NCBI GenBank assembly: GCA_029964075.1
Contig: CM057135.1
Coordinates: 28,137,366-28,201,365 of the forward strand
DNA length: 64,000 nucleotides
From: Patiria pectinifera
Lineage: Eukaryota > Echinodermata > Asteroidea > Valvatida > Asterinidae
Direction of reading: 5' to 3'
The position numbers and the translations under genes are program-made. The notes under the pieces are model-generated. The model saw only the letters and a list, made by a program, of their open reading frames with translations. It was not told where the DNA came from and made no database searches. Of this stretch, positions 35,216 to 38,200 are shown one piece after another. Every line of letters starts with the position of its first letter. Positions within the stretch are counted from its first letter, which is position 1.

Positions 35216-38200
35216 CTGGAGTGGGGAAACAATTAACAGATGGTGTGAGTCTGGCTGCTATGGATCAAATTCAGCACCGAGACCGTCAAACACAAGTTTG
35301 TTGTGAACGCCAAGTTTCCTGAAAATATTAAAAAATGACTCCGAGACCGAATCGTCGGGTGCCCGGCAGAAGGGCATATGAGCGTTCTGACGCGAAAATC
35401 ATTTTCAAGAAAATTCCATTGAAAGGTTCCATTGTTCCCCCGCGCGTATCATGAATCCAATATTCCCCCACACGTAATATAAATCGTACAAATTTGGAAT
35501 TTGTCACACGTATGAATCATAAGTTTTGGAACAACTGGCAGTAATTTCTGACAATTTTTTTTAATATTCATTAAAATAGAGGCAGTTTGCTGCACATGCC
35601 CTTTTGCTGGGAGCATTTTGGTCAATAAGCGCTATTGCATAAGGGCATATGCACATATGCCCTTCTGCCAGGCACACGACGGAATGTTTTATGCAAATGT
35701 TACCAAATCCAATGTCAGCTTTTCAATTGTCATGAGACAGCGATAACTTTCACAGGGCAACTTTCTCAAACCAAGTGTTTCAAAGTTGTACCATTTTTTG
35801 TAAAAGCTCCACAATCAACTGACATCAGGAATGTTATACACCATGACAAAGTTTTTTTTTCTAGTTGTGTTTAATGTCAATACGTTCTTGAAACCTGATT
35901 TGTGCATTATACTAGAAGCAGAACACACTTTTCTTATCAATGGGGAAATACACAAGGAAATGACAATTTTGTTTAAAAAAGTTGAAAAACCAATGCAGAA
36001 ATGCCCACTGACCAAAAACAATAACTTACTGCAGTACTCAGACTCCGCTTTCAAAAAGCTCAACATTACACTTGACCCTACCCCACCTCTAAAGGAAAGA
36101 ACCAATACCATCAGCAGCTCTTGCGGGGATGGGTTCCACTTAAGTAAGATTTGAGGCTTTGCATGGTGGAGATACTAAATAATGAAAGGTTTGCGGAAAC
36201 ACCATGTGGGAATAATTTCTCAACTAAGAGAATGGTTCTGAAAAGAACCAGAGGTATAAACTCGACGTTCCGGTCAGTATGCTCTGACCGTCTTCAGGTT
36301 CCACTTACCAAATCCCATATCTTGATGACTCTGTCATTGGTCTTCAGGTTCCACTTACCAAATCCCATATCTTGATGACTCTGTCATTGGTCTTCAGGTT
36401 CCACTTACCAAATCCCATATCTTGATGACTCTGTCATTGGTCTTCAGGTTCCACTTACCAAATCCCATATCTTGATGACTCTGTCGTTGGTCTTCAGGTT
36501 CCACTTACCAAATCCCATATCTTGATGATTCTGTCATTGGTCTTCAGGTTCCACTTACCAAATCCCATATCTTGATGACTCTGTCGTTGGACCCTGTCAC
36601 AAACCACTGATTCCCGGGCTCCACGGCAATGCTCCGGACCCATCCAATATGGCCGCTGATGACACGGTACAGCTTCCATGGAGGTCTCCACTGTGGCTTG
36701 GGCATCGTCGGTGCTTTCCTGGGTACAATGGCACCAGACTGTTTGCCCCCACTAGGGACTGCAACAAGTGCCTGTGGGGAACAAGACAACACAACAATTG
36801 AACCCTTTGCAAGTATTAGTTTCTTCCCACTCAGCCAAAGTAAAAAGTAATTTGCAGCAGCATTGCTAAGGCCAAAAAAAAAAATTAGTCGGTCTCTGGT
36901 CAGCGCGCGCGTCGATTTTAATCATGCACGTCGATCTTTTTTTTTTCCAAAATGTTCCACGGTAGCTCCAACAGCGCCCTCTATTTCCGCACCTCCTCAT
37001 TTTTTTTTTACCAAAGAGCACCAAGGAATGGGAAATTGCACCAAGGCAAATGATCGAAAGCACCAAGGCAAATTATGGAGGACAGCAATGTACATGAGGA
37101 CACCAAAAAAGCAAATTAGTACCCCACCTTGTCTATACAATCCAAGCTTGAAAAAAAAAAAAAAAAGCCGCGTGGCCGCGTCAATTCCGGAACTTTGGTC
37201 TGACCAGAGACCGAATATTTTTTTTTGTGGCCTAATGTTGCTAGCATCGTGACTTTGGGCGTGATCCCTGGCTACACTGCATATACAGGTTTATGGCTTC
37301 TGACTAGTGCCCCTGAACAAAGACAGTGACCAACAAGGGAACTGCCAACACAGGACTGGATAGCTCAGTTGGTAGAGCACCGGAACGGCAATCCGGAGGT
37401 CGCAGGTTCAAACCCGCTCCAGTTAATTTCTTTGTTCAATTTTTACAAATTAAAGAATTTGTCACAGACATCATAAACAGAAACCTTCTTTTCATGGTAC
37501 CAGTTGCTAAATTGCTAAACAATCTACAAGTTCAAGACTTTCTTGTTTTAGGGCAAATGTGGCAATATTGTCTGTGTTTAGAGATCAGACAGGGTATATC
37601 TGTATCATCCACCATTCTGCATACATCAAAATGTAGCACAAGTATTAGGCTGAGTCTGAATCACTTGGCTACGGCTAGAAATATCACACTCGTCTATGGA
37701 ACGTGGCTGCAGCCGCTAGCCAGTGGCTTCCATAGGTGCGCGTGTTATTAGTAGCCAATTGATTCTGACACGACCTACTACTTGGATATTTAAAAACAAA
37801 GCCTCAAGTGTGTTACTCTAAAGAAGCAGAAACAATATTGCACCAACAGTGCAGGTTAGAAGGAAAACGTGGAGACAGTATCAATCAAAGTCAAATTCTC
37901 ATCAGTATTACCTTTGACCCTAGAGGCCCAGCCCTCTCCGGTATCCCAGCATGCCTGTGGATATCCTCCACGCTGGCTGCTGTCTTTTCACTGTTGAGCC
38001 TAACAAGAACAAGAGTTCACATAAATAATAACACAAATAGTTCAAAACATAATCTGAATAGGAACATCAAGCCAAGTTTTGGACCAACTTGTTACTTGAT
38101 CTGTTTCCCTCTGTTGGAATTTTCTGGATTTTCATCGATGCAAAACTCAAAAGTATATACCATGTTACATTTGTTTACAAATTAGATGTTGTGGTCATGT

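Follow-up and report, generated by a model that had tools for sequence, protein, structure and literature searches.

The closest described counterpart of the locus reported here is intron 7 of the human F7 gene, where 37-bp repeats each contain a donor and where, according to the excerpted section 4.4 of a review (PMC6627357, which cites Borensztajn 2006), only the most upstream of them is normally used. The same excerpt presents oriented scanning as a mammalian rule and reports that damage to the first F7 donor results in exon skipping and in the use of downstream cryptic donors. In a literature search on repeated or duplicated donors, conducted mostly without full texts, no direct precedent other than F7 was found. 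Boundary repeats in general are a known kind of thing, since tandem repeats located at exon-intron boundaries of human segmental duplications were reported to have modified introns in 27 instances, with an average of four copies of a 30-bp unit, and variation of such minisatellites was described as altering splice patterns (PMC2812944, in excerpt).

The second system of relevance is the retroelement Penelope, in which an inverted pseudo-LTR (pLTR) lies beside the direct one and lacks its 30–40-bp tail, and in which pLTR and tail together take in the first residues of the ORF, as stated in the available parts of PMC3846280 and PMC11167929. One Penelope insertion without a target-site duplication had its 5′ junction formed via microhomology (PMC3846280, available part).

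The PLRG1 gene and the donor array at the end of exon 7

The window, i.e. the whole analysed stretch of 64,000 nucleotides from Patiria pectinifera (GCA_029964075.1, contig CM057135.1, positions 28,137,366 to 28,201,365), carries PLRG1 on the minus strand; 12 exons in one open frame were placed by eye from the ATG at 42040 to 31080, with the C-terminal end of the protein lying outside this model. Exon 7 (36559–36771, minus strand, 213 nt) is directly preceded by the acceptor CCCCACAG and ends at donor 1 with a sequence encoding ...VIKIWDL, which matches the WD40 region of human PLRG1. Its identity, proposed in the preliminary description, was confirmed by the match of exon 7 alone to the human PLRG1 chain 4yvd (E 6.9e-47), the sole row above it being 2ymu, a repetitive WD40 protein whose score is a sum of many weak repeats, and by the piece encoded by exons 7–9 (123 aa), which aligned with human PLRG1 in 123 of 123 columns with no gap. 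Intron 7 (35216–36558, minus strand, 1343 bp) ends with the acceptor CACTCCAG and is followed by exon 8 (35080–35215, minus strand), which starts with GCAAGTGGCAAG (ASGKLK).

Six head-to-tail units of 50 bp occupy positions 36590–36291 of the minus strand at the end of exon 7, as had been described, and TRF called the array at 36290–36590 with a period of 50, 6.0 copies, a match of 98% and a score of 581. Unit 1 (36541–36590) consists of the last 32 nt of exon 7, GTAAGTGGAACC and TGAAGA and probably holds the donor in use, while units 2–6 (36291–36540) are five additional copies with identical donors. In every unit the donor reads TTG followed by GTAAGTGG, and the boundaries named in the preliminary description were all found in place, the last exon base being 36559 for donor 1 and the corresponding bases for donors 2–6 being 36509, 36459, 36409, 36359 and 36309. 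Counted along the minus strand, the units vary at just two sites, namely unit position 5 (C,T,C,T,T,T) and unit position 12, which is A in copy 2 alone, so that pairwise differences amount to 0–2 of 50. Judging by the C,T,C,T order, a block of two units may have been copied once, with single units added afterwards. A decayed seventh unit downstream of the array was considered and rejected, as 1717 of 2000 shuffles reached its score. In the 613.5-Mb genome assembly the array was matched at a single place, and thus neither a haplotig nor a further copy came to light.

The chance of such a coincidence was estimated from nine TRF arrays of the window (at least 3 copies, period at least 10; a few short or A/T-rich rows were omitted). 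Random placement of their units in the window gave 0.09 expected hits on the 11 PLRG1 donors, or 0.03 when the 323-bp unit was left out, so an array of this kind is rare in this window, yet is presumably ordinary across a genome of 613.5 Mb.

Other repeats of the window include large satellite-like arrays, one at 23417–27431 with about 12 copies of a 323-bp unit and one at 15898–16368 with about 28 copies of a 17-bp unit. Two arrays of 16-bp AACTCGTACGCG-type units in opposite orientation are located upstream of the PLRG1 start, at 42627–42791 and 43443–43627.

Reading frames after the six donors

When donor 1 is joined to the acceptor before 35215, the product is colinear with human PLRG1, which agrees with the earlier claim that only the first donor gives the normal protein. 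Each of donors 2–6 yields ...DLVSGT and then a stop, the TGA in each of these five cases lying four codons beyond donor 1; the Val-Ser-Gly-Thr reading of the preliminary description, with a stop premature for donors 2–6, is thus correct. Use of donor 4 would lengthen the exon by 150 nt, which is divisible by three, but the added stretch still includes the stops. By the usual rule a stop located upstream of later junctions leads to nonsense-mediated decay (NMD), and NMD would be expected here because several junctions follow the stop.

An inserted retroelement next to the array

The account of the array in the preliminary description leaves out a retroelement. At the downstream end of the array, 12 nt inside intron 7, there is an insertion of 154 nt (36143–36296, minus strand) reading TGAAGACGG...CTTACT, flanked by a perfect target-site duplication (11 of 11 bp, TAAGTGGAACC) which overlaps the donor. 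Its 5′ copy (36297–36307, minus strand) lies in unit 6, with a copy in every unit, and its 3′ copy is found at 36132–36142 on the same strand. The duplicated stretch corresponds to intron positions +2 to +12; the upstream copy retains the GT, and the downstream one, which reads TTAAGTGG, has lost the G of the GT. The empty site before insertion would have been GTAAGTGGAACC joined to CATCCCCGC (CATCCC after the junction); an intron 7 free of the insertion may be expected to start with GTAAGTGGAACCCATCC.

A hammerhead-like core, CTGAAGA-stem II-GAA, forms the start of this copy; its stem II is the hairpin CGGTCAG-AGCATA-CTGACCG (36271–36290, minus strand) adjoining the array, and the 5′ strand of stem I is absent. 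The insertion is thus a solo, 5′-truncated pLTR with its tail. The hairpin had also been considered as a separate feature promoting slippage and was rejected as such, since it is the stem II of the element. In the long form of the element ACTC and GAGT fold to close stem I. Rfam reported no hammerhead at E up to 10 for the PLRG1 copy and none at E up to 5 for four other loci. The histone 3′ stem-loop (RF00032) was rejected as well, the match scoring 25.6 bits, below the gathering score of 34 bits, and being taken as a chance resemblance of a pLTR stem-loop because it is present in the four other loci scanned too.

A 400-nt query (36640–36241) gave one full-length match, which was to itself; the 58 bases at its end were found at 100% in at least 42 other places, including several inverted pairs (489 candidates, 40 scored, 50 matches listed). 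The search with the element stretch (36298 to about 36140) returned 1708 candidates at first look, 40 being scored, with 48 matches listed; the best 40 of these matches, the PLRG1 copy included, are 99–100% identical, and the stretch 36298–36141 is 100% identical to locus L018 over 158 nt. Against the majority sequence of 32 other copies, the PLRG1 element shows one difference in 154 sites, and at that site it agrees with L018; five of the 37 other copies had been left out because an ungapped comparison gave more than 15 mismatches for them. As the 40 best pLTR matches are so alike, the family looks recently active.

The element belongs to a Penelope-like family

Judging by its sequence features, the insertion belongs to a Penelope-like retroelement family. 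Among 44 distinct loci (48 were scanned, four being listed twice), 20 bear a second, inverted arm in head-to-head arrangement. The forward arm ends at position 155–159 and the inverted one at 113–129 in 18 of the 20 copies, i.e. about 30–45 nt short; in the remaining two it ends at 76 and 89. Locus L067 (G000:C87:83000-86900) contains an uninterrupted Penelope-like ORF of 896 aa (506–3193) with a reverse transcriptase domain (RVT_1, PF00078; E 3.3e-9, 37.2 bits against a cut-off of 29.6 bits) and the YVDD motif. Two pLTR copies accompany it, one at 3198–3041, overlapping the ORF start, and the other, 123 nt long, at 295–173, past the ORF end, and the tail ACCATGCAAAGCCTCAAATCTTACTT encodes the start of the protein, Met-Gln-Ser-Leu-Lys-Ser-Tyr (MQSLKSY). 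A GIY-YIG-type motif, GVYRIPCECGKVYIG, is present at residue 789 of 896; Pfam gave no endonuclease hit on the ORF and 0 families on the 127-aa C-terminal piece, so that the endonuclease is a putative one, assigned by the motif.

On C87 three same-strand matches to the element are spaced 2903 bp apart (83526, 86429, 89332), which is similar to the tandem arrays published for Penelope-like elements.

Among 38 distinct copies whose 3′ end is intact, the PLRG1 copy being one of them, 24 have an exact repeat of 10–14 bp that occurs both in the 3′ flank and on the upstream side; two of the 24, L041 and L042, are located in a duplicated region and count as one event. A repeat of 7–9 bp, which may be due to chance, occurs in 11 of the 38, and three have none. 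The upstream side was searched over about 780 nt at most, abutment to the element was checked for some of the repeats, and the copies compared are the best matches to the copy of the window and not a random sample.

At the 5′ junction of L028 a 14-bp repeat including the target-site duplication is present in two copies, the only such case among the 37 other copies, and junction repeats were therefore rejected as a regular product of the element, only PLRG1 and L028 having them among the 38. L028 hints that integration can leave repeats at the junction, and its own repeat is possibly a small relative of the PLRG1 array.

Order of events and proposed history

All six units contain GTAAGTGGAACC followed by TGAAGA, the first six nucleotides of the element, which the empty site lacks. 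Because every unit has both the duplication and the six element nucleotides, amplification took place at or after insertion, and the array is no older than the insertion. Both are probably young in view of the divergence of 1/154 and the identical duplications.

The history that we propose begins with a Penelope-like retroelement placing a solo 5′-truncated pLTR 12 nt into PLRG1 intron 7, which duplicated the 11 nt overlapping the donor (+2 to +12). The working donor stayed with the upstream copy of the duplication, the downstream copy having lost the G of its GT. The 5′ junction, comprising 32 nt of exon end, the donor with the duplication and 6 nt of the element, was then amplified head-to-tail to six units, probably by repair or slippage, to give a young minisatellite. 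In the pre-mRNA the 5′-most donor is presumably chosen by exon definition or oriented scanning, as in F7 intron 7, and donors 2–6 would be carried along as decoys, any leak to them giving a premature stop and probable NMD. Taken as a whole, from insertion through amplification of the junction to use of the first donor and functionless decoys, this history is in our opinion probable, and the most likely function of the array is none.

Strength and accessibility of the donors

The predicted duplex with U1 has an energy of -10.2 kcal/mol for each of the six array donors, against -10.8 for the donor of exon 1 and -4.6 to -9.6 for the other nine PLRG1 donors scored, so the array donor ranks second of 11; exon 8 has no GT donor and was omitted. 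The letters of the U1 5′ end used for pairing are the same as ATACTTACCTG, with which the three U1 loci read, out of 12 detected in the genome, begin. When the 103 GTs from the exon 7 start to the acceptor were ranked, the top six were the array donors, and the next two reached -9.4. Since the predicted U1 strength is equal for all six, nothing intrinsic excludes donors 2–6.

According to local folding predictions, donor 1 is the least accessible of the six in two of the three settings (0.0005 versus 0.0023–0.0287 for the others, and 0.0003 versus 0.0039–0.0065). Structural hiding of donors 2–6 was accordingly rejected, no folding pattern favouring donor 1 and two of the three settings showing the reverse. 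The 12 AGs examined, which come from the initial part of the array, have no acceptor-like tract, their C+T content being 0.35–0.45 versus 0.75 at the two true acceptors tested, and the remainder of the array consists of repeats of the unit that holds these AGs. As the array AGs are devoid of such a tract, use of array segments as cassette exons is not expected.

Alternative explanations

Two alternatives had been left side by side in the preliminary description, a neutral recent expansion and a self-regulating switch; the former gains support from the fact that the units hold the junction of a nearly undiverged insertion, and the latter remained unsupported. Under such a switch, regulated use of donors 2–6 would lower the PLRG1 transcript when splicing capacity is high. 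The TGA four codons past donor 1 with junctions downstream is the classic geometry of NMD, the extra donors are alternative sites bringing a premature stop as in NMD-coupled autoregulated exons, the array donors pair strongly with U1 (-10.2 kcal/mol, ranking second of 11), and PLRG1 is a spliceosome component. However, the role of PLRG1 lies in the Prp19-associated complex during activation, and it is not known to act in the choice of the 5′ splice site. The array is, moreover, no older than its nearly undiverged retroelement, the predicted U1 strength is the same across the six donors, and the F7 precedent, as excerpted in PMC6627357, uses the first donor only, so that we regard an NMD-coupled switch as improbable. 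We think equally little of a copy-number-tunable splice attenuator within one species, in which the extra donors would compete for U1 and divert a fraction of PLRG1 to NMD; if it were true, minisatellite length would determine how much of a spliceosome component is made. A companion reading, hinted at by L028 with its two copies, is that Penelope integration may itself seed tandem repeats at the junction. Somewhat less doubtful, though still unlikely, is a mixed use of the donors, with the first one dominant and a constant unregulated leak to donors 2–6, i.e. a hitch-hiking, mildly harmful defect resulting in slightly less PLRG1. The identical donor strength and the predicted accessibility of donor 1, no greater than that of the others, would permit such a leak, whereas a shorter exon favours the upstream-most donor, here donor 1. 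The excerpted F7 precedent (PMC6627357) points in the same direction.

Two further explanations concern the origin of the array and of the intron itself. Near-identical 50-bp units are easily miscounted, and the copy number could be an assembly artefact; but the array lies on a contig of 44.85 Mb, its copies are told apart by the C,T,C,T,T,T pattern and the private variant of copy 2, and it has only one genomic match, for which reasons we give an artefact very little credence. The start of intron 7 also resembles that of exon 8 (GCAAGTGG...), as if the intron had been born by tandem duplication of the exon 8 start, a route of intron gain for which the potato RdRp gene provides a case (PMC4974935, in excerpt). 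The local score of 31 is the highest of 132 intron-start/exon-start pairs, the next being 20, and the observed scores were reached by three of 5000 full shuffles, by five of 5000 with GTAAGT kept and by 40 of 5000 without the first six bases. Despite that, the blocks that produce the match, CTGAAG and CTGACCGG, are retroelement sequence, belonging to the Penelope-like element found at many unrelated sites, so that the resemblance is a chance one; this origin is refuted by the element boundaries and the target-site duplication, was rejected, and retains next to no probability. Our preferred reading is a junction amplified at or after a recent insertion, with the first donor probably in use.

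Other features of the gene

PLRG1 intron 8 (35079–35029, minus strand, 51 nt) is without a GT donor and has ends of the AC...AC type (ACATCCTAG...TTTCTTTAC...CTCAAC). Removal of ACATCCTAG...CTCAAC restores the conserved Lys of EQNKVIRH, colinear with human PLRG1; the frame is open too when the intron is read straight through, with 17 extra residues, and in-frame read-through is the rival reading. Its sequence gives intron 8 the appearance of a minor-class (U12) intron of the AC-AC type. The genome contains one locus each above the cut-off for U12, U11 and U6atac. The candidate branch site TTTCTTTACCC is predicted to pair with the U12 of this genome at -8.5 kcal/mol, against -10.0 for the consensus, and the 5′ site with U11 at -4.8, weaker than the -6.5 of the consensus.

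A tRNA-like gene (37354–37425, plus strand; ARAGORN Ala GGC; Rfam tRNA, 59.6 bits) is located antisense in intron 6 and is perhaps a dispersed tRNA-derived repeat, because locus L005 holds three similar matches. At about 38330 on the minus strand, in intron 5, there is a histone H3-like fragment, presumably the start of H3, followed by unrelated sequence, as judged by eye.

Comparison with known systems

The locus shows how a donor minisatellite may be born: a retroelement inserted in a splice site, partial duplication of the site and amplification of the junction. It also constitutes a natural experiment on the choice of the 5′ splice site outside mammals, with six identical donors in a nearly identical local context that differ mainly in position, and if only the first one is used, the 5′-most preference of F7 would hold in a distant animal.

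The family of the insertion shares with the Penelope-like elements described in the available parts of PMC3846280 and PMC11167929 a pLTR with a possible hammerhead-like core, a tail of about 30–45 nt encoding the ORF start, head-to-head inverted pLTRs, target-site duplications and an ORF with a reverse transcriptase and a putative GIY-YIG-type motif. The PLRG1 copy differs from them in being solo and 5′-truncated and in having its 5′ junction amplified six times; the duplications, 10–14 bp in 24 of 38 copies here, are given as 8–10 bp in those parts.

Like the cases in the excerpt of PMC2812944, the PLRG1 array consists of tandem repeats at an exon-intron boundary, while those cases concern paralogues and new introns and the PLRG1 exon and intron are probably unchanged. 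The likeness to F7 intron 7 is closer: in both genes head-to-tail repeats lie at the 5′ splice site of a coding exon, with the units beginning at the exon end and each carrying one of a series of near-identical donors. As the layout is shared, the donor in use is probably the first one, with the remaining five passed over, and given the outcome of first-donor damage in F7, an array of the PLRG1 type may change the response of the gene to donor mutations. Unlike F7, the unit is 50 bp instead of 37, the gene codes for a splicing factor, and the units hold a retroelement junction with its target-site duplication, from which the order of birth can be read.
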